This document shows positions 1-23,846 of a stretch of DNA of 39,853 nucleotides, one piece after another. Source of the stretch: Anaerolineaceae bacterium UBA4799 (GTDB lineage: Bacteria; Chloroflexota; Anaerolineae; Anaerolineales; Anaerolineaceae); contig DHGL01000045.1 in NCBI GenBank assembly GCA_002402725.1, positions 189 through 40,041 of the forward strand, read 5' to 3'. The notes beneath the pieces were generated by a model. The model was not told where the DNA came from. It saw nothing but the letters and a program-made list of their open reading frames with translations, and did no database searches. Each line of letters opens with the position of its first letter. Positions within the stretch are counted from its first letter, which is position 1. A program made the position numbers and the translations under genes.

Positions 1-2802
1 TCCGTTTTAGATCAGGAAGTACCATCCGATCAGCCTGGCTTGATCTCATATGATCAATATTGGAAACTGATTCAAGATGATCCCAGCCTGCGTAGTATTG
101 ATGATATTGCCAAAGTAATTGAGAAAAGTAATATTCTTGAGGGGCTGATTCAGAATGCTTATACACGTCCCAATCTCAAGGATTTAGCCATCCGCATCAT
201 TCGTGCACTCAGTGTTCAGCGTCTGACAACTGGTGATGTCTTTATTCCCCTGGGTGTGACCGCAGAAGGTATGCGCGATGGGTTGTGTCTCTACCAACGA
301 CTCCCGCCTGAGATGAATAATGCTGAATTTCTACTCGATCAGGTTCAGGTGGCGCTCAAAGAGATGATGAAGACGGTTCAGGGTCAGTTCCTTTCTTACA
401 ACCCAGAAAACGGTCAGTATTACCTGGACTTGAAAAAAGCAGTAGATTTTGATCAGAAAATTCTTGAACGCGGCGATTTCATGGATAAGTCTGACCTAAA
501 CACCTATTTTTACGATGCATTACGTCAGGCACTCAATTTGAGCGATACAACCTATTTGACTGGTTATAGTATCTGGTTCTATGAACTACCATGGGCAGAC
601 CACAAAGTCACCCGCCCTGGTTATTTATTCTTTGGTCCGCCCGATGAGCGCACCACCGCCCAACCTCCACGCGATTTTTATATTTATTTCCTTCCGCCAT
701 TCAAGGATCCTTCCTGGAATGATCAAAAATTACCAGACGAAACGATCTATTACCTGACCGGACTGGATAATGACTTTGAAACTAAAATCCGTCTTTATGC
801 TGGTGCGCGGGCAATGGCAAACGAATCCACAGAATATCGCTTGGAATATGCCAACAAAGCTGAAACCTATTTCCGCGGTTTAATGCGTTGGCTGCAAGAA
901 CACATGATTGAAAAATTGCATATTGTTTACCAGGGTGTGGATGAACCCATTCAAACCGTTCTCACCCGTATGCGCAGTACCGCCAGCCAGAATTTAGAGG
1001 AATTGATCCGCCTGGTTGCCTCTCATTTGTTCGCGCCTGAGTTTGAGGATCGCTATCCAGATTACCCAAAATTCCAAAGGTTGAGCCAGCCCGTTACAGA
1101 GGTTGCCCGAGCGAACAGCGCGATGGAAGCTATTCGCAGATTATGCGGTCGTAGCTCCAATTTGGGCTCCGGTGTTTTGGAGGGGTTGGGAATTCTCGAC
1201 GGTCAAGGCAATATTCACCCTTACGACTCTCCCTACACCAGCTATTTTTTGAAGCTCCTCAACGATAAACCTGAAGGACAGGTCATTAATCGCGGTGAAG
1301 TCATCGAAATTGTCGCCGGTGGGCTTCAGCCAGTGGAAAAAGACCTCAAATACCAATTGGAACCGGAATGGGTGTCTGTCATCCTGCTGGCATTAGTATA
1401 TAACGGCGATGTCGTCCTCAGCCTCGATGGGCGTGAGGAACTGGATGCCAGTACACTGGAACGCGCAATGACTCGCTCTATGACCGATATTGTCAATTTC
1501 CGCTTTTATAAACGCCCGCGCAGCCTCCCGATCAACCTTTGGACCATGATCTTTGAAGGTCTGGGATTGCAGCCTGGGTTGATACGCGACGAAAACACGC
1601 GCGAGACAGCCATCCCAGAATTGCAACGCCTGGTACATTCTGAATTGGAGCAAGTGGTGGTGCTGCAAAATCGTTTGGAGCAAGGCGCACAGCTATGGAA
1701 TACTCCCGTATTTACTGACCGATTGACCTTCGTGGTGGAAGAGGGAACCGTTGTAGGCAGTGATGCACCCGATTTTTCACTTTCGGTGATGGATCTTCTG
1801 CCTGGTCTGCGCGGTTACAAACAATTTTTGGAAGAACTGAATAAGTACACCACGGTGGGAAAGCTGCGCAACCTGCGCTATACCCCGGTGCAAATTCAGG
1901 AGTATTTAGAATTCCGCGAGGTAGTACAACGCGCTCGCCAGCTTCTGGATGCCATCAACCAACTGCAACCTTTCACGACTTACCTAGTCGAAGCACAGGC
2001 AAACTTACCGGAAGACCATGCCTGGACGCAGCGCGCCCGCCTTGTTCAAAAACAAACTCTGGATTCCATTCGGCGTTTTGGAAAAGGCAGAGAGACCTTT
2101 GATCAACAAGCTGCCATACGAGAATTGACGAACCTGAAACAGGAATATGTTGCCGTTTACAGTGACCTGCACCGTAAAAACGTGTTGACTGCCAGCGGTG
2201 ATGATTTGCGCCAGCGCTTGTATCATGATGATCGTTTTGAATCGATGCACGCTCTTTCTGGCATTGAGCTTCTCACACGCAGTGGTGATTTTGAATTCTG
2301 GAAACAACAGCTTACCGGGTTACTTAGCTGCCGCGAGTTTCACGAAGGCGCGATTGCAGATTCCCCCACCTGCCCTTATTGCCACCTGCGACCGGCACAG
2401 CACCGGGGAGCAGCCAATTCGGATGCATTAGTTCGTTTGCTGGATGAAAAACTGAGCGACTTGCTCAAAAACTGGCGCAAAGCGCTGCAAACGAACCTAT
2501 CCAGTGAAACCGCTCAGCACAGTCTGGAGGCTATGTCGCCAGCGGAGCGCAAGCCGATTGAGGAGTTTTTGAAACAGAACGACGAAGCAGAAAGTGTGCC
2601 AACAAACTTTGTGCCCGCAGCCATTCAAGCCTTGCGCGGGATCCAGGCGGTGACCATTCCTGTGGATGCGCTGCTGCAAGCGCTCAAAACAGGTGGCTTG
2701 CCTTGCACCCATGAAGAGTTGCAAAACCGTTTCAAGCATTTTCTGGATCAACGGATGCGCGGGCACGACACCAGTAGTACACGTCTGACACTTGACCAAT
2801 AA
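1..2802 (+). CDS. BrxC/DUF6079-like BREX ATPase, C-terminal part (5' end outside window)
   Basis: The frame is open from base 1, so the gene begins upstream of the window and about 933 codons are visible. Its N-terminal P-loop region is not in view. The visible part is soluble and helix-rich. Near the 3' end (2371-2382) there is a CPYC pair resembling a zinc knuckle, after a motif LLSCREF. I read it as the C-terminal portion of a DUF6079/BrxC-like large ATPase. This rests on remembered family features (the phrase TTGDVFIPLGVTAEGMRDGL, the C-terminal CPxC pair) and on the methylase and PglZ downstream. In BREX systems such ATPases are needed for methylation and for phage restriction. Codon use is moderately GC-rich, like pglZ and unlike the PLD gene that follows. 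It could instead be another large NTPase of a PglZ system. Fairly sure of the system, less of the exact family. Confidence 0.65.
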   Translation, partial: SVLDQEVPSDQPGLISYDQYWKLIQDDPSLRSIDDIAKVIEKSNILEGLIQNAYTRPNLKDLAIRIIRALSVQRLTTGDVFIPLGVTAEGMRDGLCLYQRLPPEMNNAEFLLDQVQVALKEMMKTVQGQFLSYNPENGQYYLDLKKAVDFDQKILERGDFMDKSDLNTYFYDALRQALNLSDTTYLTGYSIWFYELPWADHKVTRPGYLFFGPPDERTTAQPPRDFYIYFLPPFKDPSWNDQKLPDETIYYLTGLDNDFETKIRLYAGARAMANESTEYRLEYANKAETYFRGLMRWLQEHMIEKLHIVYQGVDEPIQTVLTRMRSTASQNLEELIRLVASHLFAPEFEDRYPDYPKFQRLSQPVTEVARANSAMEAIRRLCGRSSNLGSGVLEGLGILDGQGNIHPYDSPYTSYFLKLLNDKPEGQVINRGEVIEIVAGGLQPVEKDLKYQLEPEWVSVILLALVYNGDVVLSLDGREELDASTLERAMTRSMTDIVNFRFYKRPRSLPINLWTMIFEGLGLQPGLIRDENTRETAIPELQRLVHSELEQVVVLQNRLEQGAQLWNTPVFTDRLTFVVEEGTVVGSDAPDFSLSVMDLLPGLRGYKQFLEELNKYTTVGKLRNLRYTPVQIQEYLEFREVVQRARQLLDAINQLQPFTTYLVEAQANLPEDHAWTQRARLVQKQTLDSIRRFGKGRETFDQQAAIRELTNLKQEYVAVYSDLHRKNVLTASGDDLRQRLYHDDRFESMHALSGIELLTRSGDFEFWKQQLTGLLSCREFHEGAIADSPTCPYCHLRPAQHRGAANSDALVRLLDEKLSDLLKNWRKALQTNLSSETAQHSLEAMSPAERKPIEEFLKQNDEAESVPTNFVPAAIQALRGIQAVTIPVDALLQALKTGGLPCTHEELQNRFKHFLDQRMRGHDTSSTRLTLDQ

Positions 2803-2820
2803 TTAACTACTCACGTAGGT

Positions 2821-2918
2821 ATCATGGCACAGTCGCTGAGTGCTATCCCGAAAACGTGTTACGAGAGGATCCGGATATGCTGATGTACTATGACAGTGCG
2901 CTTCTGAGAAAGAAATAA
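2821..2918 (+). pseudogene. Relic of the 3' end of a second defence methylase
   Basis: Bases 2832-2918 encode 28 residues plus a TAA stop. These match the last 28 residues of the methylase ending at 6635, with 24 of 28 identical; the changes are R/C, L/Y, D/N and L/M. The two copies share an identical 23-base run (2880-2902 and 6597-6619) but differ at many synonymous sites, so this is not a recent duplication. Similarity continues a few codons upstream to about 2821 with one base missing, then stops. There is no start codon or upstream coding sequence. I read it as the leftover tail of a related methylase that once followed the ATPase gene. Confidence 0.85.
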
Positions 2919-2953
2919 AATCTATTTTATTTTGTTTAATTTTAAGGAGAATT

Positions 2954-3991
2954 ATGTCTCAAATCACCCTGCCCTCTTGGGAAAATCTCAGTGAAATAGT
3001 GACTACAGCCGAAGAAAGAGTCTTAATTTGTACGCCATATTATTCCTCATCTGGTATTGGAAAAGTTTTTGATTCAATTGGGAATGCAAGCCGGTTTCAG
3101 TTTTGGACCCGATTAAGTCCGAGTGCTTGGGCAGCAGGTGTTACTAGCCCAGAGGATTTATTAGCTCTTGCCGATTTAGTACGTCAAAACGGTCAAAACT
3201 TCCAGCTTGCCGACATTGAACGATTGCATGCTAAAGTATATGCCGCGGATTACTCACTAGCCCTAATTGGATCTGCAAATCTCTCTGATGGCGGATTTAG
3301 AGCTAACCTTGAATTGGTTGTGAAATTTGTCGGCGAAGAAGCACAGTCCGCGGTTAGGTTTGTAGAAGAAAATTTCACTCCTAGATTAAGAGCTATTGAT
3401 ATTGAAACTTTCCGAGAATGGATTCAAAGAAATAAACCGACAATTCTAGAGGTTCGTTCTAGACCTGACACTAGTGCTGATGACCTTCAAGAAGTACAAA
3501 GGTCTCTTGATGAAATCTTAGGCTATGGTCAAGCACCAGAAGAAGGCAGACAAATAGACGAATATTCTCATATTGACTTTGGCCAATGGCTCGACCATCA
3601 TCTTGAATTATCTGGTGCTGAAGTATTAGCAGATAGATACCATAATTCAAGCGGTCAAAATCTTACCGGGCATTTTAAACAAAGTTTTTATGGGATAGTT
3701 GGTTTTTTAAGTGAACATAATGAATATATTACTACATTGGCTACAGAATTGGGACAAATCGAACCTGAAAGAGTCTATGAGATTAATCCGACTATTCTTG
3801 ACTCTTGGCTGGAGTATTTTAACAATCATGCAACACAATCTGGGGCTAACTACAATTTTGCCATTCTACGTGGTATCGTACCGCCTTCGATAGGAGGAAC
3901 TCGCTTTGGAGGAGGTGGAGGAATAAGTACCTTTAAGAGGATGTTACCATTAGTCGCAAAATACTTAAGTGAGGTAGGTGATGGTGATTAA
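2954..3991 (+). CDS. PLD-fold protein (single HKD motif), defence-associated
   Basis: A 345-residue protein with one HKD-type motif: H92-x-K94-x4-D99, followed by an IGSANLSDGG stretch. This is typical of phospholipase-D-fold nucleases that dimerise to build the active site. The N-terminal part also fits the PLD fold (LICTPYY). The C-terminal half (about 170-345) is unrecognised and ends in a Gly-rich segment. The start has a good AAGGAG site at 2944-2949. The reading frame overlaps the methylase start by about 11-14 bases, which suggests translational coupling. PLD-fold proteins occur in DISARM (DrmC) and in several methylase/PglZ defence loci, so a restriction role is likely but not shown. 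The gene is clearly more AT-rich than the ATPase gene before it and appears to have arrived with the 5' part of the methylase. Confidence 0.8.
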   Translation: MSQITLPSWENLSEIVTTAEERVLICTPYYSSSGIGKVFDSIGNASRFQFWTRLSPSAWAAGVTSPEDLLALADLVRQNGQNFQLADIERLHAKVYAADYSLALIGSANLSDGGFRANLELVVKFVGEEAQSAVRFVEENFTPRLRAIDIETFREWIQRNKPTILEVRSRPDTSADDLQEVQRSLDEILGYGQAPEEGRQIDEYSHIDFGQWLDHHLELSGAEVLADRYHNSSGQNLTGHFKQSFYGIVGFLSEHNEYITTLATELGQIEPERVYEINPTILDSWLEYFNNHATQSGANYNFAILRGIVPPSIGGTRFGGGGGISTFKRMLPLVAKYLSEVGDGD

Positions 3992-6635
3992 AAAGGAAAC
4001 TGAAAATGAGGTTCAAGATAATCTCTTCCCAGGCGAGGATTCTTTCTCGAATATTGGAGTTCCTTCTAAGAATGATATATCCGAAGACTTACTGGAAGAT
4101 TTAAGGCGGATGATTTCACAACAACGGGAAATTGATGGGGCGCCTATTGCTTCAAATGATGACATATTAAGGTTGTCCCTTCCCAAAAATTATACAGCTT
4201 GCCCTAATCCGTATATTGCCGCATTCATTCAAGAAAATTCAATTTCATCTGGAAGTTATATTTCAAGAGGACCTTTTGTAAAAGATATATCAGTAGGAAA
4301 AAACGACCCCTTGTATTTTGCACACTCTTATTCTACAAAAGTACCACCTGATGCTATTGTTCCATTCATACTTCACTACACATCTCCAGGCGACATTATT
4401 TTTGATGGGTTTTGCGGAACTGGAATGACCGGTGTTGCGAGTCAGTTATGTGCAAGAAAAGAATTTGAAAATAATGGCGTTCGAAAATCAGTGTTAGTGG
4501 ACTTAAGCCCAGCAGCCACTTTTATTGCAGCCAACACGAACTCCATACGTTCGTGGAGAAGGTATTTGGCAACGATAGAAAAATTAATCAGAAGTGTTGA
4601 AAGAACACACTCTGATCTGTTAACTACCAATCATGTTGGTTGGATGAGAGGCGAAAAAGATATTTCTAGGAGAGTCAACGCCACAAAACCGCATTTATCT
4701 ATAATGGGTGAAATCAATTATGTGGTTTGGTCTGATGTTTTCCATTGTACAGAATGCAACCAAGAACTAATATATTGGGATTTGGTCTTTAAAGGTCCTG
4801 GCATGCCTCCCCCTCAGGAATTATTTTGTCCAAATTGTAAAGTTGCTTTAACAAACAAAACTTTAGAAAGAACTTGGATTTTAAAATTTGATCCTGAATT
4901 AAGCACAACCTTAAACCAAGCGAAACAGGTTCCCGTCTTGGTAAATTATTCAGTTGGAAAAAAAAGATTTGAGAAATTTCCCGATGATCGTGATATTGCT
5001 TTGTTAACGAAATTGGATAATGAATCCATGATCAATAGAATTCCAATTGTGGAATTGCCTGATGGTTTTAATACCGAACAACCTAAGAAGTCACATGGAT
5101 TTACACATGTCCATCATTTTTTTACTAGAAGAAATTTGATAATGATGGCAGATCTTTGGAATTCCATAAATCATCTAGAAGATCCAATTCTTCGCGATGC
5201 TGCTTTATATGTTTTTACTGGTTGTATTCAAAGAGTCTGCAAGTTAAACCGATATATGCCAGTTCATGATCGCCATGTTGGCCCCCTATCTGGAACATTG
5301 TACGTGTCACAAATTACTGCAGAAATCCCGATAACAAACTATTTTAAAGAGCGAATAAAGGACTTAAGGCGTATTAAACCCGAAACGGACAGAAGTAATG
5401 TCTGTATTTCGACACAAAGTTCTACTGACCTGCGGAACATCCCAAATGAAAGCATAGATTATATTTTCACAGATCCACCTTTCGGAGGGAACTTAAATTA
5501 TTCCGAGCTGAACATCCTTATCGAGGCTTGGCTCGGAGTAAAATCCGACCAAAAACCTGAAGCCGTTGTAAATCTGGTTCAGAGGAAAGCGATTTCTGAT
5601 TACAGTGAGCTAATGCGAAGTTGTTTATCTGAATTTAATAGAATTCTAAAATCGGGGAGATGGATAACTGTTGAATTCCATAATTCACAAAATTCAATAT
5701 GGAATTCCATCCAAGAAGCCATTGGTCAAGCAGGATTTATTGTTGCTGATGTTAGGACTCTAGACAAACAAAAAGGCACCACGAAACAACTAACATTCGA
5801 TTCAGCCGTAAAACAAGATTTGGTTATTTCTGCTTATAAACCTAATGGAAATCTAGAAGAGAAATTCCGTCTAAAAGCAGGTACCGATGATGGCGTTTGG
5901 GAATTCGTTCGGTATCACCTTGGTAAATTGCCAGTTGTTGTGCAGAAGGATGGAAACACTATTGTCAATGCTGAACGTCAGGCATTTTTGCTCTTTGATC
6001 GAATGATAGCCTTTCACATCCAACGTGGGGTATTGGTGCCAATCTCCTCGCCTGAATTCTATGCTGGTTTGGACGAGCGCTTCACTCGCCGAGATGGTAT
6101 GTATTTCCTCCCTGATCAGGTGGCAGAATATGACCGTGCTGTTCTCGATTCCGGCAAACCCACCCAGCTCTCGCTCTTCGTTTCTGATGAAAAAACCGCT
6201 ATTACCTGGCTCAGGCAGCAGCTCGACCCATCCTCTGCTGGCGAACCCAAAACTCAGGGCGACCTGACCAACGACTTTAACCGCGTCATGAACCGCGCTA
6301 AGCATGAGCAGCCCTTGGAATTGATCGAGATACTCAAACAGAACTTCCTGCAGGATGAAAATGGCAAATGGTATGTACCCGATCACAATAAAGCCACTGA
6401 TCTGGAAAAAGTGCGCCAACGCACCCTTCTAAAAGAGTTTAAGGATTATTCGGAAAGTAGTGGTCGTCTGCGTCAGTTCCGTACAGAGGCGGTGCGCGCC
6501 GGCTTTGCTGACTGCTTCAAGCGACAGGAGTTTGAAACCATTGTCACCGTTGCTGAACGGTTACCTGAAGATGTACTACGTGAGGACCCTGATCTGCTGA
6601 TGTACTATGACAGTGCGCTATTGAGGAAGAAGTAG
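3978..6635 (+). CDS. BREX-type DNA adenine methylase with zinc ribbon (mosaic gene)
   Basis: An 885-residue SAM-dependent DNA methylase. Motif I is FDGFCGTGMTG (F142 onward) and motif IV is DPPF at 499-502. The order I, long insert, IV is that of alpha-class amino-methyltransferases. The insert, the likely target-recognition region, carries a zinc ribbon (C257, C260, C284, C287). A C-terminal domain of about 250 residues ends in a conserved tail (VLREDPDLLMYYDSALLRKK) that I recall from methylases of PglZ loci. It probably marks host DNA as self, the PglX role. GTG 3978 is possible, but ATG 3981 is better spaced from GAGGT (3971-3975). Up to about 5900 the gene is AT-rich; the remainder has the GC-richer codons of the flanking genes, so it looks like a recombinant. 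No frameshift is seen. Confidence 0.85.
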   Translation: MMVIKKETENEVQDNLFPGEDSFSNIGVPSKNDISEDLLEDLRRMISQQREIDGAPIASNDDILRLSLPKNYTACPNPYIAAFIQENSISSGSYISRGPFVKDISVGKNDPLYFAHSYSTKVPPDAIVPFILHYTSPGDIIFDGFCGTGMTGVASQLCARKEFENNGVRKSVLVDLSPAATFIAANTNSIRSWRRYLATIEKLIRSVERTHSDLLTTNHVGWMRGEKDISRRVNATKPHLSIMGEINYVVWSDVFHCTECNQELIYWDLVFKGPGMPPPQELFCPNCKVALTNKTLERTWILKFDPELSTTLNQAKQVPVLVNYSVGKKRFEKFPDDRDIALLTKLDNESMINRIPIVELPDGFNTEQPKKSHGFTHVHHFFTRRNLIMMADLWNSINHLEDPILRDAALYVFTGCIQRVCKLNRYMPVHDRHVGPLSGTLYVSQITAEIPITNYFKERIKDLRRIKPETDRSNVCISTQSSTDLRNIPNESIDYIFTDPPFGGNLNYSELNILIEAWLGVKSDQKPEAVVNLVQRKAISDYSELMRSCLSEFNRILKSGRWITVEFHNSQNSIWNSIQEAIGQAGFIVADVRTLDKQKGTTKQLTFDSAVKQDLVISAYKPNGNLEEKFRLKAGTDDGVWEFVRYHLGKLPVVVQKDGNTIVNAERQAFLLFDRMIAFHIQRGVLVPISSPEFYAGLDERFTRRDGMYFLPDQVAEYDRAVLDSGKPTQLSLFVSDEKTAITWLRQQLDPSSAGEPKTQGDLTNDFNRVMNRAKHEQPLELIEILKQNFLQDENGKWYVPDHNKATDLEKVRQRTLLKEFKDYSESSGRLRQFRTEAVRAGFADCFKRQEFETIVTVAERLPEDVLREDPDLLMYYDSALLRKK

Positions 6636-6678
6636 GGGTTTAAGGAGATGAAGATGATGGAGCATGGTCGTCAAACAT

Positions 6679-6707
6679 TTGACATTTCAACTGATTCATG
6701 CTATAAA
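6679..6707 (+). promoter_or_regulatory. Near-consensus sigma-70-type promoter for the NYN-pglZ unit
   Basis: TTGACA at 6679-6684 and TATAAA at 6702-6707 are separated by exactly 17 bases. Transcription would begin near 6713-6716. The resulting leader of about 80 nt carries two hairpins before the NYN start codon at 6794. This gives the NYN, pglZ and BrxA-like genes their own transcription unit, apart from the ATPase/PLD/methylase unit. No operator is obvious. Confidence 0.7.
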
Positions 6708-6775
6708 ATAAGCACATCCCCCCTGCTCCTTCGGGTGCAGGGTGCGAGGCGGCGAATAACCGCCTCTGCTTATTT
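6706..6775 (+). ncRNA. Structured leader: two hairpins and a possible enclosing stem
   Basis: Hairpin A pairs 6721-6729 with 6734-6742 around a UUCG tetraloop closed by C-G, with one U-U mismatch. Hairpin B pairs 6746-6752 (GAGGCGG) with 6760-6766 (CCGCCTC), perfect over 7 bp. A third perfect 9-bp pairing, 6706-6714 (AAATAAGCA) with 6767-6775 (TGCTTATTT), would enclose both as a three-way junction. The 5' strand of that outer stem overlaps the -10 box, so the full junction could form only in transcripts reading through from upstream. It could be a regulatory leader, a weak attenuator, an RNA processing site or a small RNA. It is not a tRNA: it lacks a T-arm and acceptor features. Confidence 0.55.
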
Positions 6776-6793
6776 AAACAGGAAGATAAGCCT

Positions 6794-7441
6794 ATGACAA
6801 CAGGGGGAATCCAAATTCCATCGGTAGTTTATGTGGATGGTTTTAACTTATATTATGGAGCGGTAAAAGGAACACCCTATAAGTGGTTGGATATTTCTAA
6901 GATGGTCCAATTACTCCTCCCAAAAAATCAGATTCTCAAAATTAAATATTTTACGGCCCTGGTAAATTCTCGCCCACAAGACCCCGACCAACCTCTTCGT
7001 CAACAAATGTACTTAAGAGCGTTGAAAACTATCCCTAATTTAGAAATCATTCCAGGCCATTTCTTGTCACACGAAGTAAGTATGCCGTTGGCAAACTGTC
7101 CACCAGGGAAGCAACAATATGTTAAAGTGATTAAGACTGAAGAAAAAGGTTCTGATGTCAATATTGCCACCCACTTATTGCATGATGGTTATCAGGGTTT
7201 ATATGGTATCGCAATCGTTATTAGCAATGATTCGGATTTGGTCGAAGCCATTAGAATCGTCCGAAATGAACTTAAGAAAGGTGTGATTGTTCTCAATCCT
7301 TTCAAAAATACACCCAGTCAGGAATTAAATAAGGTCGCCACTTTCGTAAAACCTATCCGCCAAGGTGTTTTAGCTGCAAGTCAATTTCCGAGTCCAATAA
7401 AGGATTCTAACGGCACCTTCAATAAACCTCCTAAATGGTAA
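6794..7441 (+). CDS. NYN domain (PIN-like) nuclease in defence operon
   Basis: A 215-residue protein of the NYN/LabA-like PIN superfamily (PF01936 type). The diagnostic first strand VYVDGFNLYYG holds D15 and N18. A second acidic site lies at D121 (GSDVNIATH), and SNDSDLVEAI carries D146 and D148. The four acidic positions are the usual metal-binding set, so the protein is probably active as a metal-dependent RNase or DNase. The conserved core ends near residue 175 and the Pro/Lys-rich tail looks disordered. The start has an AGGAAGAT site. The stop directly abuts the ATG of pglZ (7442), indicating one operon. NYN proteins are not standard BREX core components, so this is a likely effector or accessory. 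Known NYN enzymes cut RNA, which would suit abortive or transcript-targeting defence, but that is inference. Confidence 0.85.
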   Translation: MTTGGIQIPSVVYVDGFNLYYGAVKGTPYKWLDISKMVQLLLPKNQILKIKYFTALVNSRPQDPDQPLRQQMYLRALKTIPNLEIIPGHFLSHEVSMPLANCPPGKQQYVKVIKTEEKGSDVNIATHLLHDGYQGLYGIAIVISNDSDLVEAIRIVRNELKKGVIVLNPFKNTPSQELNKVATFVKPIRQGVLAASQFPSPIKDSNGTFNKPPKW

Positions 7442-9418
7442 ATGATGATGATCGATGACGTATTGAACTTGTTTCCATCCCATACCCACCCACTGACTTT
7501 GGTAAGTGATCCAGACCGATTTCTGTCTGGTGAAACGGTGGTGTCGGAATTGGCGAAGCGCGGCTTTCAAGTTATCCAAGAAGATGATCCTGTTTTCTTG
7601 CACCACCGCGTGGAAGAAGCTCGTCCCTTTACACAAGAGCATCCGGTTATCATCACCACTACTGGTGCTCTGGAAAACATGCCTTATGATATCTATCAAC
7701 CTGCTTATCGGTTGAGTTTTTCCTTACACCAGTTTTTCCCCAACCTAGCCTACCCGGTGCTGCAAACGCTCAATCCGGATCAAATTGAAAAACTGGCATC
7801 CTGTCAACCACCAGTTGAAACCTTGAGCCGGCAAAAAACCATAGATTACTTACTGCAAGTGGTCTTTGACGTCGATCCAGTTACATTAAGCCAACCACAA
7901 GCACTGATTGGCTGGTTGAATGACTATCACCACCACCAATCACCTCTTCCAGAGCTGTTGCGTTCTGGCCTGGTTGAACGCTTGAAACACAACCCAATAT
8001 ATCGAGAATGGGAGATCAATCTTCTGGTTCGTGACGTTCAGTCTTTCACAGATTTCATCCAGCAGCAATGGCAGGAGTCTGTTGAGCAATCCTTATCAGG
8101 CAGACAGGTCAAAGAAACCGCATCCGGATACCATGTTTCTTTTGATAGCAATCTCCAATTGCAAGATCTGGTACCGAGCCTGGTTCGCCGGGGAGCTATT
8201 CAACCACTGGAAATCGCTGATAAAAAAAGTTTACCCAACTGGGCGCAACCCGGTTTTACACAGATTGATGTGCGCATTCAACGCTTCACAACGCTTTTGG
8301 AAGAGCTAGATAACCGTTTTACAACAATGAAATCTGACCCGCATGTACAAACGGGCTGGAATGTCTGGGGTGAATTTGCTCGAGATTGGGCAGAGCTGTG
8401 CAGCTATCATTCACAAACAGATCTCGCCATCCAGTTGTCGCAAAAAGAGACTTTCCAAAGACTAGTTCGTGATGTAGATCCGTTTTTTGCAGCTTGGTTG
8501 AGAAACAACTATGGCCCTCTTGGTGCTCAACGTTTGCCCAAACCACACCATGTTCATCATATACCGCATTACCTGGCCTACCTCCGCAATCTTGGCCAAA
8601 TTGAGCGGGTTGTCCTACTGGTTCTGGACGGATTATCTCTGACTGATTGGCAGGTGATTAAGTCCGTGTGGGCAAAACGGCATACGAATTGGGAAATGAA
8701 AACCGAGACACTTCTCGCCCAGGTTCCCACAATCACTTCCATTTCCAGATATGCATTGATTTCTGGGCTTCGGCCGGCAGATTTCGCAACTGATCTAGAG
8801 CATTGTGTGTCGGAAGCTCGCGCCTGGGAATTGTACTGGTCTAGAGAAGGAATCCCAGAAATTGCTTGTAAGTTGTTACCGCTTTCTTATGATCGGCAAA
8901 TTGACCAACAGCCTGAAATGCAGGATCCGAGGGTAAATTTCTGGTGTTTAATCGATGATACACCCGATAAACTGGCGCATAATGCCACCCTTGGTGCAGG
9001 CGATCAACAATCCTCTCTCCGGCTATGGCTGGACCCAGCTCACGATCAAAATTCACTACCGCTCGAAAAACTGATCGACTCGTTTCTGGATCGAGATTAT
9101 TCAGTGTTTATTGCCAGCGATCACGGACACGTGGAAGCCACGGGGTTTGGTCAACCATCTGAAGGTTTGCTGGCACAGACACGCGGAAAACGAGCCAGAA
9201 TTTACATGGATAGACTGGCAGCGTTGCGGGTTAAAAGCGCTTTCGCAAATACCATTCTGTGGGACAACGATGGTATTTTGCCAGATCAGATGACAGCACT
9301 AATGCCGGCGGGACGAGATGCCTTTGCTCCCAGCGGAGAAGTCGTTGTTACTCATGGCGGTATTTCAATCGATGAAGCGATTGTCCCTCTTATTCAAATA
9401 TCGAAAGCGAGTTCTTAA
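7442..9418 (+). CDS. pglZ: PglZ-family phosphatase, BREX core protein
   Basis: A 658-residue PglZ protein of the alkaline phosphatase superfamily. The N-terminal about 380 residues are the family's variable region. The metalloenzyme domain starts with LVLDGLS (D396), continues with a serine/threonine-rich strand (VPTITSISRYALISG), then SDHGHVEATG (D560, H561, H563), and ends with VVTHGGIS (H638). These are the expected metal ligands and appear intact. PglZ is shared by all BREX types and is required for defence. The purified E. coli protein is a Zn-dependent nuclease/phosphodiesterase in published work. The first of three tandem ATG codons directly follows the NYN stop. The gene is followed by a TAATG overlap with the next gene. 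Size is shorter than type 1 PglZ and fits type 3-like forms. Confidence 0.92.
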   Translation: MMMIDDVLNLFPSHTHPLTLVSDPDRFLSGETVVSELAKRGFQVIQEDDPVFLHHRVEEARPFTQEHPVIITTTGALENMPYDIYQPAYRLSFSLHQFFPNLAYPVLQTLNPDQIEKLASCQPPVETLSRQKTIDYLLQVVFDVDPVTLSQPQALIGWLNDYHHHQSPLPELLRSGLVERLKHNPIYREWEINLLVRDVQSFTDFIQQQWQESVEQSLSGRQVKETASGYHVSFDSNLQLQDLVPSLVRRGAIQPLEIADKKSLPNWAQPGFTQIDVRIQRFTTLLEELDNRFTTMKSDPHVQTGWNVWGEFARDWAELCSYHSQTDLAIQLSQKETFQRLVRDVDPFFAAWLRNNYGPLGAQRLPKPHHVHHIPHYLAYLRNLGQIERVVLLVLDGLSLTDWQVIKSVWAKRHTNWEMKTETLLAQVPTITSISRYALISGLRPADFATDLEHCVSEARAWELYWSREGIPEIACKLLPLSYDRQIDQQPEMQDPRVNFWCLIDDTPDKLAHNATLGAGDQQSSLRLWLDPAHDQNSLPLEKLIDSFLDRDYSVFIASDHGHVEATGFGQPSEGLLAQTRGKRARIYMDRLAALRVKSAFANTILWDNDGILPDQMTALMPAGRDAFAPSGEVVVTHGGISIDEAIVPLIQISKASS

Positions 9419-10137
9419 TGGATAAAGGTATTGGATTCAGCCGAACGATAATGTTGGATTGGTTGGATGTAACTGCATCCTTGTGTGTTCAGAATTTTGA
9501 ACCGCTCAAAATCAGGCAGCATTTGGCTGAAACGATTTCAGGAACTGTTCACGGGATAGATGCCCAGCGGAAAACAATCGATGTATTATCGGCAATTTGG
9601 GTGAAGACAGAAAAGAGTGCCCCGCAAATTCGACAGCAAGCTTTAGCCATATTTCCAACACTGTCATCATCCGAAGAGCGGTTGTGGCTCCATTATGGCA
9701 TGACGTTGGTTTGTTACCCGTTTTTTCGAAAATGCACAGCAGCCATTGGCCAGGTCAGCCGGACTGACGAATTAATCACTAGAAAAGTGATCAAAGACCG
9801 AATCGCTGGCGATTATGGACATCTAGGTGCATTGGACCGATCAGTAGAACGCATTATCGCTTCGTTAACCAATTGGGGAGCACTTGGCAATACTGATCAG
9901 AATGACAAATATCAGATTTCATCAAGGAAGTTTCAATCAACTGATGTCATGCAAAGTTGGTTATTATCATGTGCCCTCTTTTCTCATCCTTCAGAAGCAA
10001 TTCCATTTGACGATTTGATACATTTACCAGAACTATATCCTTTCAAATTCACGATTGGCGTGGATAATCTGCGAAGGGATTCACGGTTTGAGGTTCAACG
10101 CCAAGGCGGTGGACTTGAGATGGTGAAAGTGAACTAG
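9418..10137 (+). CDS. BrxA-like (DUF1819-type) small BREX protein, tentative
   Basis: A 239-residue soluble protein whose ATG overlaps the pglZ stop by one base, a strong sign of co-translation. It is mostly helical, with a winged-helix-like stretch around 130-165 (GALDRSVERIIASLTNWGAL, then a KYQ strand). Size, likely fold and position directly after pglZ fit BrxA of BREX type 3, which is a DNA-binding DUF1819 protein. I cannot confirm a family motif by eye, so the name is tentative. It ends the operon; no clear terminator follows. If not BrxA, it is an unassigned component of the same system. Confidence 0.5.
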   Translation: MDKGIGFSRTIMLDWLDVTASLCVQNFEPLKIRQHLAETISGTVHGIDAQRKTIDVLSAIWVKTEKSAPQIRQQALAIFPTLSSSEERLWLHYGMTLVCYPFFRKCTAAIGQVSRTDELITRKVIKDRIAGDYGHLGALDRSVERIIASLTNWGALGNTDQNDKYQISSRKFQSTDVMQSWLLSCALFSHPSEAIPFDDLIHLPELYPFKFTIGVDNLRRDSRFEVQRQGGGLEMVKVN

Positions 10138-10377
10138 TTTTGATCCTTGAATTCCATTATTGTTCACCCACATGATTTGAACTAAGCAAGACATTATTTC
10201 ACACTGTACGCATTCCTTATTTAACACTATACAGGAACAGCCTAAGGAGAGTTACATGGTAAGTTATTCTCTTTTGTGTAAATTAGAACATATTATCTAA
10301 TAGGGTTATAATTGTTTCAGGATTGGTAATTATCAGAGCATAAAAATATTCTCTTTCAAAAGTTAACTTTATTACAT
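10138..10377. promoter_or_regulatory. Boundary between the defence operon and the mobile element genes
   Basis: A 240-base AT-rich gap. A 14-codon ORF (10256-10300) has an excellent AAGGAG site 7 bases upstream and could be a leader peptide or just chance. A TATAAT at 10307-10312 is a plausible -10 box for the gene at 10378, but the hexamer 17 bases upstream (TAGAAC) is poor. No repeat marking an element end was found here. Confidence 0.35.
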
Positions 10378-11487
10378 ATGACTTTTCTGCCTGGTTATCG
10401 ATGTTTCATAAGTTCAAGCCAACAAAGAGTGGTCGCCTTGATCATTGCCTGTTTTCAACCTGTTTATGATCCAGTAAATTTTCAATACTCGCAATCCGGT
10501 GAACCATTTACCCTTCAAATCAAATGCAAAAAATGGGGAGATATTGGTCGGGTAGTTTGTTCCGAAGTCCAAGCAGGAAAAACTGAACTCCAGTTCGAAC
10601 CCCCTCAGGGCATTACTCCTGATGTCGCTGTCGCAAACCAAAAACTTATCCGCGAAGAATGCTTAGGTCTCCGGGGAAGACTTGCTGAGCTGTTTGGTCA
10701 GGACGATATATTCTTGGCCACCCTCGCGGAGGCACTTTATGAGAAACGTCTGGATCGCCAAAAAGAATTCATTACCTGGCTTTTGGATCGGCTTCAGATT
10801 TTTGGATTTAGAGATCTGTGTTCGCCGTTTCCAAACATGAAATCCGCTCCTACAGACAAAATTGACCTACATTTCGATTTCCCGATTCAAGGCACGCCGG
10901 CCCAATTTGGCGTCATGATCCGGCAATTCGAAACCTTGCTGAGAAGCCAAAACGAATATCAGAAATTACTTTGCCAGGTGTCTTTAACTGGCAACAAAAA
11001 CATACTTCAAATTCCATCTGATGCCAATCCGGTGGAAGTAAAAATGTTGATTGCCAAGAATCAGATAACCATTAATGCACATCTACTCCCCTCCGCTGGA
11101 TCGCTGTTACGAGTCCAATTAAGAGGTGAAAAGACCGTCTGGTTGATTTGGGACAAAATTCGGGATGAGTTGGAAAAATTAGGGTGGTTCCCGTTACCGA
11201 AAATCCCAGAACCGGCCATAGCTATTGAGACCAAATTAGAACCTCAACAAATTTTAGCATCCTCACCCGTTGAAGTTTGGCTGATGATTCCTAACGTTGG
11301 CGCCAATCAGGATATCGTCCGCCTCTGGCATCAAGGCCTGACTTGTGCCCAAATTGCAGCGCGAGTGGGACTGAACGAAAAGACGATCCTCAATCGCATC
11401 AATCAGTTGCGCAAAGAATATGATATCCAGATCGTTCCCTATCGAAAATCAAATTTCATCAAAAAACCGAAGGATCAATCTTCATGA
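10378..11487 (+). CDS. Unassigned protein with C-terminal helix-turn-helix
   Basis: A 369-residue protein I do not recognise over most of its length. The only clear feature is a C-terminal HTH at about 318-356 (GLTCAQIAARVGLNEKTILN, then RINQLRKEY), of the kind found in response-regulator or sigma-like DNA-binding domains. The middle region (about 85-300) is helical and strand-mixed with no transmembrane segment. ATG 10378 lacks a good ribosome site, and a later start is possible. It lies between the defence operon and an iteron cluster at 11508-11559, so it may be a replication initiator or copy-control protein of the element, or a regulator of the defence genes. Both are inferences from position. 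Codon use resembles that of the primase gene. Confidence 0.6.
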   Translation: MTFLPGYRCFISSSQQRVVALIIACFQPVYDPVNFQYSQSGEPFTLQIKCKKWGDIGRVVCSEVQAGKTELQFEPPQGITPDVAVANQKLIREECLGLRGRLAELFGQDDIFLATLAEALYEKRLDRQKEFITWLLDRLQIFGFRDLCSPFPNMKSAPTDKIDLHFDFPIQGTPAQFGVMIRQFETLLRSQNEYQKLLCQVSLTGNKNILQIPSDANPVEVKMLIAKNQITINAHLLPSAGSLLRVQLRGEKTVWLIWDKIRDELEKLGWFPLPKIPEPAIAIETKLEPQQILASSPVEVWLMIPNVGANQDIVRLWHQGLTCAQIAARVGLNEKTILNRINQLRKEYDIQIVPYRKSNFIKKPKDQSS

Positions 11488-11507
11488 TCTTGTATTGGGG
11501 TTAAAAA

Positions 11508-11559
11508 GGGATATTCAAGGGATATAGAGGGATATCCAGGGTACTTGAACAAGGGATAT
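11508..11559 (+). repeat. Four direct GGGATAT iterons
   Basis: GGGATAT occurs at 11508-11514, 11519-11525, 11529-11535 and 11553-11559, with start-to-start spacings of 11, 10 and 24 bases, roughly on one face of the helix for the first three. The third copy is within a GGATATCC palindrome. The cluster sits between an HTH gene and a small-gene/primase operon. That layout fits a replication origin with iterons, or an operator for the HTH protein. Confidence 0.6.
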
Positions 11560-11623
11560 TCCAAATGGCAGAATGGTGACGTTGAATCAAACGTCGTCAT
11601 TTTTGTTTGCCAAAAGGAGTTCT

Positions 11624-11827
11624 ATGCTCAATTGTCTCAAAGTTTTGTTTGAACAGCCGGAGTATTCAGCCCTGATCCGTCTCTCGGAACGGGAGATGCG
11701 CACGCCGGCTGACCAGGTGCGCCTCATCGTCCGACTGGAACTTGTCCGGCGCGGTTTGCTGCAGGACACCCTACCCAATCTCAGTCATCCACAGGAGGAC
11801 AGCCTCACACATGAATCCACCTGCTGA
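11624..11827 (+). CDS. Small ribbon-helix-helix-like protein
   Basis: I place the start at ATG 11624, preceded by AAAAGGAG at 11613-11620, rather than the in-frame ATG at 11573, which has no ribosome site. The product is 67 residues. The stretch EYSALIRLSEREMRTPADQV followed by two helices (RLIVRLELVRRGLL) resembles a ribbon-helix-helix DNA-binding fold. It starts a tight run of overlapping genes leading into the primase. A regulatory or plasmid-partition role is plausible for such small proteins in mobile elements, but unproven. Confidence 0.6.
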   Translation: MLNCLKVLFEQPEYSALIRLSEREMRTPADQVRLIVRLELVRRGLLQDTLPNLSHPQEDSLTHESTC

Positions 11828-12035
11828 AATCCTCCAGTTGTCACAGGAGGAGCAGGGAAGGTTGTTAGCGCGCGTCTACGCTTTCATCCTCAGCGATCAA
11901 TTTACTGGAACACAAAAAGAAATTAATTCGGTCGAAACAGACCAGAAAATCTCAAAGAATATCAAGAACAATAAACACGTAACCTCACAAGAAATAGACG
12001 CTCAATTTGTCCATCACCAGGAGCCAATGCCATGA
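11811..12035 (+). CDS. Small hypothetical protein of the element
   Basis: A 74-residue protein starting at ATG 11811 with an AGGAGG site at 11793-11798, overlapping the preceding gene by 17 bases. It begins MNPPAEILQLSQEEQGRLLA, a short amphipathic helix region, and continues into a polar Lys/Gln/Asn-rich tail. No family is recognised. Its stop overlaps the primase start in an ATGA arrangement (12032-12035), so the two are probably co-translated. Confidence 0.55.
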   Translation: MNPPAEILQLSQEEQGRLLARVYAFILSDQFTGTQKEINSVETDQKISKNIKNNKHVTSQEIDAQFVHHQEPMP

Positions 12036-14680
12036 GTAACCAAAATATTTCCCTTTCCGAAAATCACCTAAAGATACTTACTGACGAATCAGGCATCTCT
12101 GAGCAGATGATCCGGGAACGTGGCTATCGCACGATCACGAGCGAAGGCGAACTGGTGCAGTTCGGTTTTTCGCCGGCATAGCGCCGAGTCCCCGGACTGT
12201 TAATTCCGCTTCACACCACCGATGGCAAGATCGGCCTGCACGTCTACCGTCCGGATAATCCTCGTACCTATGAAGACCGCAGTAAGCGGGAAGCTGATGG
12301 CTTGCGGCCAGTAAAAGTGTTGAAATACGAAATACCAAAAGGTGCCGGCGTTAGGGTGGACTGCCCACCGTCCTGCCTGAAAACGCTGCAAAATCCGACC
12401 ATTCCACTCTTCATCACCGAAGGGCAGAAGAAAGCCGATTCATTGGCTTCCCAGGGAGCTTGCGTCATTGACTTATTGGGTGTGTGGAACTTCAAAGGCC
12501 GCAACGAATTCGGCGGAACCACTATCCTGGCTGACTTTGATTTCATTGCCTGGGAGAACCGTCTGGTGCGAATCGTCTTCGACTCCGATGTGATGTATAA
12601 GCCATCTGTTCGTCTGGCTTTGGAGCGTCTGACCGAGATCTTGCAGCGTAAGGGAGCTACCGTCTCAGCTATCTACCTTCCTAACCATCCTAGCGGGATC
12701 AAATGGGGTGTGGATGACTGGTTGGCTGATGGGCACAACCTGCAAGACATGGAAGCCTTGATTGAGCAGCCGCGGCCTGTTCCCCAGCCGGCACAGCCAA
12801 CTATCGAATTGTTGGACGAACCCTCACCCAATATCACCCGTCCGCTGAGTCTGGTAGGCAAACAGGCTTATGCTGCCACCTGGCTGCCAGTCCGTACCAC
12901 CCGACGAGAAGTTCTGGATAAAGAGGGCAACCTGCAGGTTCATAATCCGCCGCTGGTTGAAGAGAAACTGTGCCTGTTCATCGTCCGTAATGACGGAAAG
13001 GTTTTTGCAGAAATCAGCGATGGACAATCCACCCATCCGCTTAGTGATTTAGGTGTGAATACAGTTTTTCGTGAAGTGGTACCGGTTGAAAAACGCTGGT
13101 CTACCCGTGGGGTGCGGGCTTATGTACAAGGTCAACGTCCCAATCCAGTCGATACCTTCGCTAAGATCGTTGCAGTCATCAACCGTTTTCTCGACTTCGA
13201 CCGTTCACTGGGTGATCAGCAATCCATGGCTGAACTCATTGGTTGCTATATTATGGGTACCTACCTGTTGGATGCCTTTAATGTGATCGGTTTCCTCTGG
13301 CCAAATGGAGAAGCGGGTTCAGGAAAGACAAACCTACTGATCGTCGTGACCGAAATGGCTTATCTGGGTCAGCTTATCCTGGCCGGCGGCAGCTTTGCCA
13401 GCCTGCGTGACCTTGCTGATTACGGCGCGACCCTGGCCTTCGACGATGCTGAAAACATTTCCGACCCCAAACAGACCGACCCAGACAAACGCGCCTTGTT
13501 GCTAGCTGGCAACCGGCGTGGATCGAGTGTGCCACTCAAAGAAGCAGATGGACCAGGAAAGTGGAAACTGCGTTACGTGAATGCCTACTGTCCCCGATTA
13601 TTTTCAGCCATTCGCATGCCTGATGCCGTATTGGCCTCCCGCACGATTGTTATTCCTCTCATCCGTACAGCTGACCGGAATAAAGCCAATTTCGACCCAC
13701 TGGACTATTCACTTTGGCCGCATGATCGTAAGGCACTGCAAGATGAATTGTGGGCAATTGGATTGGCTAACCTGCCAGCGCTGCATGGTTATGAAAATCA
13801 AGTAGCTCAAAGTTCCCGTTTACGCGGACGCAGCCTTCAGCCATGGAAAGCCATCCTTTCTGTAGCTGCCTGGTTGGATGATGTTGATCAAAATCATAGC
13901 TTATTGCGCAGCTTCATCCAGGGGAAAGATCAGGTGGTGATCAGCGGATTATGGCGGCGATTAGAAGAAATGTCATGGCGTTACCAACAGGAAGAGACCA
14001 GTGATCTGCAAAGCAGTGATCTGACCCTGCTAGCACTTCAAGCGATGTGCAAATTAGCTGCTGACAAGAGTGACATTAAAGACATTAGTGACGATGCTAT
14101 TTCCACTTGGACTTTCTCGACTTCACAAATCAGCGAAGCGGCGCAGACTGTTGCTGAAAATACAGACGCTGATGTCGATAAGGAATCCATTACCTCTCGA
14201 AAGGTTGGCCGACTGCTTGGCAAGCTGCGTCTGCGTAAAACACGCGAAGCCGGCAAAGGCACTCGCCAATGGCAAATCACACTGTCCGAGCTGGAACGTT
14301 GGGCAAGAGTGTACGGGATTCACTTACCCGTTGAGTTTATCCGGGAAACCAATGTCACTGATGTCACCAATGGCTTAACGTCACAAGAGGATACTGCACC
14401 ATGGCAGAATTGCGAAATTGCCTTGCGCTTGCCGTCCGACTGCAAGCTGCCTACCATTGGTGGCTTTTGGCGCCGGTTACCGGACGGTCGCGTAGAAGCT
14501 GGTTATAGCTCGAAAGAATTAGCTCTGGCCTTGACGCTCTTTCTCGATAAGGACGTGGACGCCGAGAAATTTGTAAAAACATCTGCTCAGCAATTAAGGA
14601 AACGTCTCATTGAGGTCACGGGTGGCGAGGTACTACATATTCAATTGAAGGAAATCGTAAAAGAGAAAAGGGATGAATGA
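12032..14680 (+). pseudogene. DUF3854/TOPRIM primase-helicase with in-frame TAG
   Basis: The complete frame starts at ATG 12032 (ATGA overlap with the previous gene) and runs to 14680, broken only by a TAG at 12179-12181 (codon 50). Downstream of it the protein continues in the same frame: a TOPRIM-like domain with FITEGQKKAD (E130) and the DxD pair FDSDV (D184, D186), then a superfamily-3/DUF927-like ATPase with Walker A GEAGSGKT (about 426-433) and Walker B LAFDDAEN, then a C-terminal helical and HTH-like region. This architecture belongs to replication proteins of plasmids, phages and integrative elements. The interruption falls in FGFSPA-stop-RRVPGLLIP, where one C-to-T change from CAG (Gln) would explain it. 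It may be dead, restarted downstream, read through, or a sequence error. Confidence 0.8.
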
Positions 14681-14909
14681 AGAATCTATTTGTGATCCCT
14701 ATGCGGTTCTTGCCCTGGCGGTTGTGTTCAAAGCTGCCTTGGATCTCAAGAGTAAGAATCCGACTTGTGCTTTGGAAGCTCGGACCTGGCTGCAATTCGT
14801 GGGGTTGAGCTGGTGCCAAATGTTAGGTGTTTCGGAAAAGGAATTGACTTTTTGGGCTGCGAATGGCTTTGCTCTGCCAGCCAACGCTCATCGTAACTGG
14901 CGTTATTGA
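14673..14909 (+). CDS. Small hypothetical protein after the primase
   Basis: A 78-residue protein overlapping the primase stop by 8 bases, with GAGAAAAGGG just upstream of ATG 14673. It begins MNEESICDPYAVLALAVVFK and contains a hydrophobic helix followed by a Trp/Cys-containing stretch (WLQFVGLSWCQMLGVSEKEL). No family is recognised. Overlap with the primase makes it a likely real gene of the element's replication operon. Confidence 0.5.
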   Translation: MNEESICDPYAVLALAVVFKAALDLKSKNPTCALEARTWLQFVGLSWCQMLGVSEKELTFWAANGFALPANAHRNWRY

Positions 14910-14973
14910 AGACTTTCCAGGTTGACTCGCTACAACCGGAGCAATACTTTGTATTTTCAAATACTCGTTTATT

Positions 14974-15001
14974 TGTTCTATGGTATATAATAGATAGAAC
15001 A
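14974..15001 (+). promoter_or_regulatory. Extended -10 promoter inside an inverted-repeat operator
   Basis: TGTTCTAT at 14974-14981 and ATAGAACA at 14994-15001 form a perfect 8-bp inverted repeat with a 12-base spacer. The spacer holds TATAAT (14986-14991) with an upstream TG, as in extended -10 promoters; no good -35 box is seen. A dimeric repressor bound here would block the promoter for the leader and the gene at 15175. The arm sequence is loosely reminiscent of SOS-type boxes, but the spacing is wrong for a known LexA site. Confidence 0.6.
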
Positions 15002-15013
15002 AAATAATAAGAC

Positions 15014-15168
15014 GGTTCGTGCAGATGTAGCGAGCACCTACACGAACCTTACCCCAACCACCGATTATCCCGGCAGTAGGGGCTGATCATATTATAGCCG
15101 ATCAGCCAGGATTCGCCCTCGGTGGGAGTTTATCACCGGGGGCATTCTATTGCCCCCAAATAAGGAGG
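15014..15168 (+). ncRNA. Structured 5' leader with alternative hairpins before a TTG start
   Basis: Four pairings can be drawn. H1 pairs 15014-15021 with 15041-15048. H2 pairs 15081-15088 with 15100-15107 (GGCTGATC/GATCAGCC). H3 pairs 15118-15124 with 15134-15140. H4 pairs 15138-15144 with 15151-15157 (GGGGGCA/TGCCCCC). H3 and H4 share bases 15138-15140, so they exclude each other. H4 ends only a few bases before the ribosome site AAGGAGG (15162-15168). No poly-U tract follows H4, so control of translation is more likely than termination. I do not recognise a known riboswitch class. An oriT or other DNA-level function is also possible. Confidence 0.5.
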
Positions 15169-15174
15169 TAATTT

Positions 15175-15960: not shown

Positions 15961-15970
15961 GAGGTTTTCA

Positions 15971-23210: not shown

Positions 23211-23251
23211 TATTCACCAGGGAGCTATTATACCGTCATTCAGGATTGCAC

Positions 23252-23289
23252 GCACGTGTTGTGACCAGCCACGTGTGACCAGCAAAGTG
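23252..23289 (+). repeat. Left copy of direct repeat bounding the low-GC island
   Basis: GCACGTGTTGTGACCAGC at 23252-23269 is followed directly by a second, shortened unit CACGTGTGACCAGCAAAGTG at 23270-23289. The right copy at 32053-32076 reads as the first unit continued by AAAGTG. The second left unit equals the right copy with three bases (TTG) missing. The repeat sits where base composition changes. Confidence 0.75.
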
Positions 23290-23594
23290 ACCATGATTAC
23301 TTTCATTGGTTCACCGAGTGCTGCCGTTTCAGCAGAAGGAACAAGATTCCGCATGGTGGTTACAGGTGCCAAACTCTCTTATATTAGCAAAAAAATTGCT
23401 GCCAATTATCTGGTTGTTGGAAATGAAAAGGTTTTCTACCCCGATCTGGGTAAGTTTGATACTACTGTTTATGAAATTCCACTGGAGCTGGGGGAGAGCG
23501 TTTCATATTGCATTGCGGGGTATTGCCTGATGTGTTGGAAACCACGCTACGGGTTACCGGATATAAAGGGATCATCGGCACAGAACTTTACTAA
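23275..23594 (+). pseudogene. Unrecognised, probably frameshifted remnant
   Basis: The gap 23211-23846 holds no intact recognised gene. A frame from 23275 encodes AANYLVVGNEKVFYPDLGKF and EIPLELGESVSYCIAG, then apparently loses one base near 23517-23521. The adjacent frame continues sensibly as VLPDVLETTLRVTGYKGIIG and stops at TAA 23592-23594. The joined product looks like the end of a real protein of unknown family. There is no good start or ribosome site, so it is most likely a decayed fragment. Confidence 0.4.
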
Positions 23595-23665
23595 AAGTTC
23601 ATCATCTGTCTGGAGTTTCCGGAAAACTACCTATACAACGATAGAATCTAATAGTCGCGGGGGAG

Positions 23666-23709: not shown

Positions 23710-23846
23710 TTAAAATAGATATCTGCTAAGTAAAAGAGGTGCGAAATTTTACAAGTTTTGTGAAAATTCACGCCCGTCGATTAGATTCTTCATAAAGCAC
23801 TAGATGAAAAGAATTATCCAGATAAAAAACGATTTTTAATTCCTAA

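Follow-up and report, generated by a model that had tools for sequence, protein, structure and literature searches.

The window analysed here, a stretch of 39,853 nucleotides from Anaerolineaceae bacterium UBA4799 (contig DHGL01000045.1, positions 189 to 40,041), begins with six genes of a defence locus, in which genes of the bacteriophage exclusion (BREX) kind stand together with a gene for a PLD-fold nuclease and a gene for an NYN-domain nuclease. The question raised by this locus is to which type of system it belongs and what the two nucleases do in it. We think it reasonably probable that it is a BREX type 3 system without helicase, carrying a PLD cassette and an NYN-RNA module in two cargo slots. 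BREX restriction is poorly explained, PglZ, BrxL and helicases each having been proposed as its business end; a natural helicase-less lineage, in which nucleases vary over a constant core, would make the division of labour in BREX testable.

Core genes of the locus

Six genes on the plus strand were assigned by Pfam and PADLOC profiles: the 3′ part of brxC, open at its 5′ end and encoding a DUF6079 ATPase (1–2802; PADLOC 860 bits, Pfam 755 bits); the PLD-fold nuclease gene (2954–3991; PLDc_2 35.7 bits, cut-off 27); pglXI, encoding an adenine methyltransferase (3978–6635; PADLOC PglXI 1050 bits); the NYN-domain nuclease gene (6794–7441; NYN 35.7 bits, cut-off 24.2; PADLOC HEC-09 150 bits); pglZ of the BREX-3 type (7442–9418; BREX_PglZ_3 448 bits, cut-off 250, and the PglZ tree below); and brxA (9418–10137; BrxA 165 bits). 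An earlier sequence-only reading of this DNA had placed the six open reading frames (ORFs) in the same positions and described a defence locus of a BREX ATPase, methylase, PglZ and BrxA with two extra nucleases, and the locus was confirmed by the profiles. The tight junctions that it had noted were also borne out: a 14-nt overlap of the PLD and methylase genes, the NYN stop adjoining the pglZ start, and TAATG between pglZ and brxA.

The window carries the core of BREX type 3 (brxF-brxC-pglXI-brxHII-pglZ-brxA): BrxC/DUF6079, PglXI, the type-3 PglZ and BrxA were all found in the same order, BrxC by its 3′ part only. The claim that the locus fits no standard BREX type was wrong on these core profiles. 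The window begins within brxC, so that 933 residues were available, with no Walker A match among them; the Walker A region and brxF fall outside. In the corresponding locus of Ornatilinea (L008), Walker A is found at residue 67 of BrxC, and brxF was present in the neighbourhoods of L008, L073, L075, L076 and L077. The difference from BREX type 3 lies in the lack of BrxHII, of which none is found from brxC to brxA, and in the added PLD and NYN genes.

With the defence island system associated with restriction-modification (DISARM), the window shares a PLD-fold protein and a methylase, and the sequence-only reading had called the PLD protein DISARM-like. However, the DrmC model gave 36.2 bits against a cut-off of 133, and no match to DrmA or DrmB was found among the eight window proteins scanned (for one of them, among the first 25 of its 28 matching families), the genes upstream of the window being out of view; a BREX/DISARM hybrid was therefore rejected. 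The best profile match of the PLD protein among solved structures was instead R.NgoVII (E 5.5e-6), followed by 7clg (a putative helicase, which we take to be SauUSI), NucT, a phospholipase and the restriction endonuclease 2c1l (presumably BfiI). The protein has a single HKD motif (H92, K94, D99, then GSAN) and a strongly conserved C-terminal tail. It resembles the PLD-fold restriction enzymes R.NgoVII and BfiI in its HKD active site, its methylase neighbour and the weak R.NgoVII profile match, and differs from them in its place within a BREX operon and in its own conserved C-terminal tail.

A predicted helicase-less lineage of BREX type 3

In the canonical plasmid loci of Roseomonas (L005) and Roseicitreum (L006), the order is brxF-brxC-'RNA-binding' (AlbA-like)-pglXI-helicase-pglZ-brxA. 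Compared with this order, the window has no helicase between pglXI and pglZ, where NYN is found instead, and has the PLD gene ahead of pglXI. Relatives were collected by searching 400 genomes of the Ornatilinea phylum for BREX_PglZ_3 (10 matched, 8 above cut-off), 147 genomes of the Ornatilinea family with an alignment of window-like PglZ (10 matched) and 149 genomes from the phylum to which the Spirochaetia genome with locus L011 belongs for BREX_PglZ_3 (4 matched, 2 above cut-off). In a PglZ tree of 20 rows, from which L007 and the partial L053 were left out, the 12 helicase-less rows (the window and 11 loci) were split from the 8 BrxHII rows with support of 100/100.

A BrxHII query against 12 lineage genomes, the window's own excluded, found no match at E<=1e-20 in five and only partial matches in seven, where the best per genome had 30–38% identity and shorter pieces up to 44%; the positive controls gave 58–100% identity in 3/3 BrxHII genomes, one of them the query's own. 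Because BrxHII is absent between brxC and brxA and no match of BrxHII grade was found in any of the 12 lineage genomes, the window locus is a predicted helicase-less variant of BREX type 3.

According to the text of a 2026 BREX survey (PMC12839542), BrxHII occurs in 702 taxa, or 77% of type 3. The same text counts HKD-DNases and PIN RNases among the BREX auxiliary effectors, HKD being found 'primarily' with type-1 BrxL and type-2 BR helicases and PIN being less common (PMC12839542); the terms 'NYN' and 'DUF3800' are absent from its main text, the supplements and figures lying outside that comparison. In the open-access literature, covered mostly at record level, nothing was found on a helicase-less BREX-3 variant or an NYN-linked RNA. 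As a further arrangement, a BrxHII-type BREX-3 locus ordered brxF-pglXI-brxC was seen in L056 (257–7541).

Cargo slots of the lineage

Comparison of the helicase-less loci points to two slots with changing cargo, slot 1 between brxC and pglXI and slot 2 between pglXI and pglZ. Slot 1 holds the PLD gene in the window and L008 and a DUF3800 gene in L073 and L076; no gene was seen there in L051, L075 and L077, and at contig ends the slot is out of view in L049, L050, L052 and L072 and partly visible in L074. Slot 2 holds NYN in the window, PDDEXK_4 in L008, DUF6883 in L049, GmrSD in L073 with ORFs similar by eye in L074 and L077, a DUF4760 match slightly below cut-off in L072, STAND/AAA ATPases on the opposite strand in L051, and unknown ORFs in L050 and L076; nothing was seen in it in L052. 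The slot-2 NYN gene of L075, 77% identical to that of the window, is interrupted by a stop, the other genes being open, and in L053, with a partial pglZ, the NYN gene is located after brxA.

The sequence-only reading had taken the tight overlaps as a sign that the six genes work together. This held in part: the set partly recurs, with the same order in L008 except for another nuclease at the NYN place and with the interrupted NYN in L075. A fixed six-gene unit was not found, PLD and NYN being, by this comparison, exchangeable cargo.

The Rfam family DUF3800-III precedes pglXI in 5/8 loci scanned, antisense to the operon: on the minus strand in L008 (9681–9786), L074 (11–117) and L077 (8820–8921), and at 11163–11269 in L073 and 10360–10466 in L076. 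It was also found before pglXI where no DUF3800 gene was seen. No DUF3800-III was found in the window by the Rfam scan.

The PLD gene and the structure of PglXI

In 4/4 intact loci with a full-length PLD of this family, the PLD gene runs at its stop into the beginning of a DNA methylase ORF, by 14 nt in the window and L008 and by 4 nt in L009 and L010. In L010, the PLD relative adjoins an orphan methylase. In L009 (9679–15800), from a Bacteroidota genome, it was observed directly ahead of a type III Mod-like and Res pair. In the Spirochaetia locus L011, a PLD gene without its middle lies between two pglXI genes, with brxF and brxC farther upstream. At least 28 loci were obtained in a scan of genome contigs for PLD, of which 24 (L012–L035) matched the HKD half only, with nothing at E<=1e-5 in L034; no BREX core gene was seen in L012–L035, and L023 has a partial helicase match of 34%. 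The PLD search found none in plasmids and none confirmed in viral contigs. When the top 120 rows of each list were compared, relatives of PLD and of PglZ shared two exact largest-contig sizes of at least 5 kb (10559 and 17787) against 0.17 expected, a heuristic measure.

PglXI of the window has DPPF at 499 and CxxC pairs at 257/260 and 284/287, both within the target-recognition domain (TRD). In the tree of residues 1–600, the window, L008 and the second PglXI of L011 (L011b) grouped together with support of 100/100, and a single clade of the seven Anaerolineaceae rows was rejected (approximately unbiased (AU) test, p-AU 1.3e-4). Residues 640–885 gave the opposite result (p-AU 6e-44): the window and L008 joined the remaining five Anaerolineaceae rows, and L011b went with the adjacent L011a (87%). 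Over the TRD (251–480), the window is 95% identical to L008, 54% to L011b and 32–38% to L073–L077. PglXI is chimeric, with residues 1 to about 600 common to a PLD-linked cassette and a local C-terminus.

Between the window and L008, DNA identity rises within the PLD 3′ end and drops late in pglXI. Along the PLD gene, blocks had 40–59% identity, except for two at 70% and the final one at 90%; along pglXI, they had 90–97% over nucleotides 1–1800 (one block 78%) and then 72–89%. The two PLD proteins are 48% alike, while their TRDs are 95% identical, and the shared stretch starts inside the PLD 3′ end; PLD and methylase as a pair of equal age were rejected on these grounds. On this comparison, PLD travels with the methylase/target-recognition half of PglXI.

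Traces of the exchange are seen next to the PLD genes. In the window, positions 2825–2917 on the plus strand are a scar, a 3′-end copy of a displaced pglXI; over its 93 nt it is 77% identical to the end of the pglXI now in place, with an alignment score of 81, whereas none of 300 shuffles scored above 25. Between brxC and PLD in L008, the scar consists of the first 23 nt and a 66-nt 3′-end stretch of another pglXI, in frame. A 39-codon in-frame ORF made of the first and last codons of the deleted pglXI (L008 9826–9945) was observed there and may be meaningless. L011 has three pglXI 3′-end copies, 94–95% alike. Its region 7047–17174 was seen to form an array of pglXI-a, the decayed PLD gene, pglXI-b, and, by eye, ATPase, Vsr-like and C5-methylase-like genes, each block closing with a pglXI 3′-end copy. 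Extra pglXI 3′ ends at E<=1e-4 were found in 3/3 PLD loci and in 1/19 others (L054); the Fisher p of 0.0026 was computed post hoc, and contig ends truncate several of the 19 loci used for comparison. In the simplest history, a cassette of PLD and pglXI would have been added behind the resident pglXI, as L011 still shows, followed by recombination at the conserved pglXI 3′ end and deletion of the resident gene. The scars suggest how methylase specificity and nuclease could be swapped as one unit.

The NYN gene and its associated RNA

The acidic residues D15, E117, D121, D146 and D148 of the NYN protein are invariant in 12 rows, as expected of an active nuclease. Ahead of the gene lies a promoter-like site (TTGACA-17-TATAAA, 6679–6707, plus strand), with similar sites ahead of the NYN module in L075, L001 and L103; this site was not listed by our consensus promoter scan owing to the last-base rule of the scan. 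It is followed by a predicted small structured RNA (6716–6773, plus strand), which has two hairpins, the second ending in TGCTTATTT. Because both precede it, NYN may not be transcribed purely as part of the operon. Rfam gave no match to the window copy of the RNA at E values up to 1.

In a 15-row alignment, the second hairpin covaries, with double changes in 7/11 pairs. Among 62 sources, the covariance model gave 30 matches at E<=0.01, which lie in 29 of the 39 NYN loci (the window, L001, L003, L053, L075 and 24 of L097–L128); the 23 sources without NYN gave no match at E values up to 1. The window copy was in the training set, and 14 of the 29 matched loci were outside it; those outside that are not near-copies number eight (L053, L003, L127, L128, L105 and the like trio L113–L115). 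Over 23 distinct rows, 96.8% of cells were paired, in an alignment fitted to the model, against at most 57.5% in slid versions; 8/11 pairs changed on both sides, and double-change cells numbered 51 against 15.4 in shuffles. Matches beside NYN come from Chloroflexota, from one plasmid each of Leptospira and Paenarthrobacter and from viral contigs; they lie on plasmids, viral contigs and chromosomes. The RNA is upstream on the same strand in 23/29 loci and on the opposite strand in 6/29, where it is downstream in L053, L003 and L113–L115 and divergent in L105.

With filters off, the model (R1) found nothing at E<=0.01 in L002, L004, L117, L119–L124, L129 and L130, and gave three weak matches (E 0.27–0.59), only the one in L130 (11.2 bits) adjoining NYN. 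A further match in L126 (E 0.43) lies away from its NYN fragment, and L004 and L120–L122 may have a second hairpin class, by eye. On the E. coli plasmid CP122887.1 (L131 553–673), hairpin units in tandem, which TRF gives as 33 nt x 2.6 and 29 nt x 2.2, lie directly ahead of NYN together with a terminator-like hairpin; the kinship of these units with the RNA model is judged by eye only.

Type III toxin-antitoxin systems of the ToxIN kind combine a structured RNA, a terminator-like hairpin and a nuclease gene. At the level of sequence, the window has such an RNA with terminator-like hairpin beside the NYN gene. As for the tandem repeats of these systems, two copies were found in L111 and tandem units, by eye, on CP122887.1, and a single copy in the window. 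The module differs from them in its putative toxin, which has an NYN domain and not the ToxN/AbiQ fold, and in an RNA that is sometimes on the opposite strand. PADLOC HEC-09, which the window NYN matches, is a protein model without an RNA partner. The NYN gene, the promoter-like site and the small RNA are, we infer, a self-contained RNA-nuclease module. Because the promoter-like site is present and the covarying RNA stands beside NYN in 29/39 loci, in several orientations, and in 0/23 sources without NYN, the data suggest that BREX here contains an embedded module similar to type III toxin-antitoxin systems. It is a candidate that can be quickly tested.

Among relatives on contigs of at least 5 kb, 13 of 40 NYN relatives share the exact largest-contig size with a PglZ relative, with about 0.1 expected; this measure is heuristic and uses the best 120 rows per list, of which 119/120 NYN rows entered.

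Proposed mechanism and alternative explanations

In the helicase-less BREX-3 system proposed here, BrxF, BrxC, PglXI, PglZ and BrxA would form a scaffold and the two cargo slots would supply the weapons. By analogy with published BREX work, the recognition domain inserted in PglXI would read the sites at which this enzyme marks host DNA, and BrxC, BrxA and PglZ, the last keeping its role, would act on unmarked invading DNA. In slot 1, the PLD nuclease and the methylase/TRD half of PglXI would make up a cassette similar to restriction-modification (R-M), in which PLD may be an added DNA-cleaving effector guided by the complex. Because PLD proteins only 48% alike share one TRD (95%), PLD would take its target information from PglXI rather than read the site itself. 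In slot 2, the RNA may restrain or load the NYN nuclease, which could serve as a second-line RNase if BREX fails. A wider proposal, on which we have slightly more doubt than belief, is that NYN with its hairpin RNA, single or tandem, is a new mobile module linked to an RNA, of the defence or the toxin-antitoxin kind, which in this clade has become part of BREX-3 as a failsafe triggered by a block of BREX. BREX-3 would here serve as a chassis both for modules linked to an RNA and for cassettes of PLD and methylase, because slot 1 likewise takes DUF3800 with the DUF3800-III RNA.

PLD and NYN could instead be ordinary passengers, unconnected with BREX in mechanism, in an operon prone to recombination, and the locus would then defend as plain BREX-3. 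NYN relatives were found in 444 plasmid records and a PglZ match in only 5, so NYN may be such a passenger; it has its own promoter-like site and RNA, slot contents differ between close relatives, and in L075 it is the slot-2 NYN that is interrupted while the other genes are open. However, PLD overlaps pglXI by 14 nt in both intact BREX loci and is paired with one methylase/TRD clade across two phyla, and NYN abuts pglZ and recurs with this PglZ clade by the size heuristic, so that we regard the passenger explanation as rather unlikely. For the RNA, a mere cis leader or attenuator of the NYN mRNA would agree with its upstream same-strand position in most loci and its end resembling an intrinsic terminator; the opposite-strand copies in six loci, the two copies in L111 and the similar-looking tandem units before NYN on the E. 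coli plasmid argue against this, and we give it limited credence. That PLD and NYN replaced BrxHII and jointly do its job is suggested by the missing helicase and by NYN occupying the BrxHII place of canonical loci. Yet L051, L073, L076 and L077, with both slots visible, have neither PLD nor an intact NYN (L075 having the interrupted NYN), and no ATPase domain match was found in PLD or NYN. We consider the replacement very improbable and rejected PLD and NYN as helicase substitutes, the clade being without BrxHII whatever the slot cargo.

Several observations weigh against the reading of a helicase-less BREX-3 with PLD cassette and NYN-RNA module. The PLD family is not BREX-specific, its relatives being found also next to a type III R-M pair in L009 and next to an orphan methylase in L010. 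It was also rare, with full matches in 1/396, 1/296, 0/229 and 1/99 genomes and a fragment in 1/26, every match in these sets being the centre genome itself (in one search, other PLD proteins accounted for two additional partial matches), and the readable PLD-BREX loci are two intact (the window and L008) and one decayed (L011). The PglXI tree tests were named only after the identities were known. An Enterococcus plasmid locus (L007), with a shorter pglZ, had no helicase seen, so that helicase loss occurs outside the clade too. Ten of the 39 NYN loci had no RNA match at E<=0.01, and the consensus scan of window positions 1–10600 for promoters and terminators was at chance level (15 against 18.8 and 9 against 9.8 in shuffles). 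Several loci are cut by contig ends, as in L050, where pglXI is out of view, and some slots and scars were uncheckable for this reason.

Genomic setting

Behind brxA, positions 10378–17776 were observed to hold genes for a helix-turn-helix (HTH)-like protein, a DUF3854 protein, a second HTH-like protein and a large serine recombinase (15971–17350, plus strand), and a partial homologue of the first HTH-like protein is also found behind brxA in L008. Farther on, positions 23236–32404 contain genes for an IclR regulator, a DHDPS-family protein, a FAD oxidoreductase and a sugar ABC transporter, which had no DNA match in the syntenic G1017 region (L090). The locus is probably carried on an element with this serine recombinase, the other end of which is outside the window. 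The host is close to G1017, a genome of the Ornatilinea family (G6PD 88%), and chromosomal homology to it resumes at about 17568. In G1017, folE adjoins a short ORF with a GGQ motif, which we take to be ArfB-like. Because the window homology resumes at 17568 within this ORF, the serine-recombinase element probably sits in the GGQ-motif ORF.

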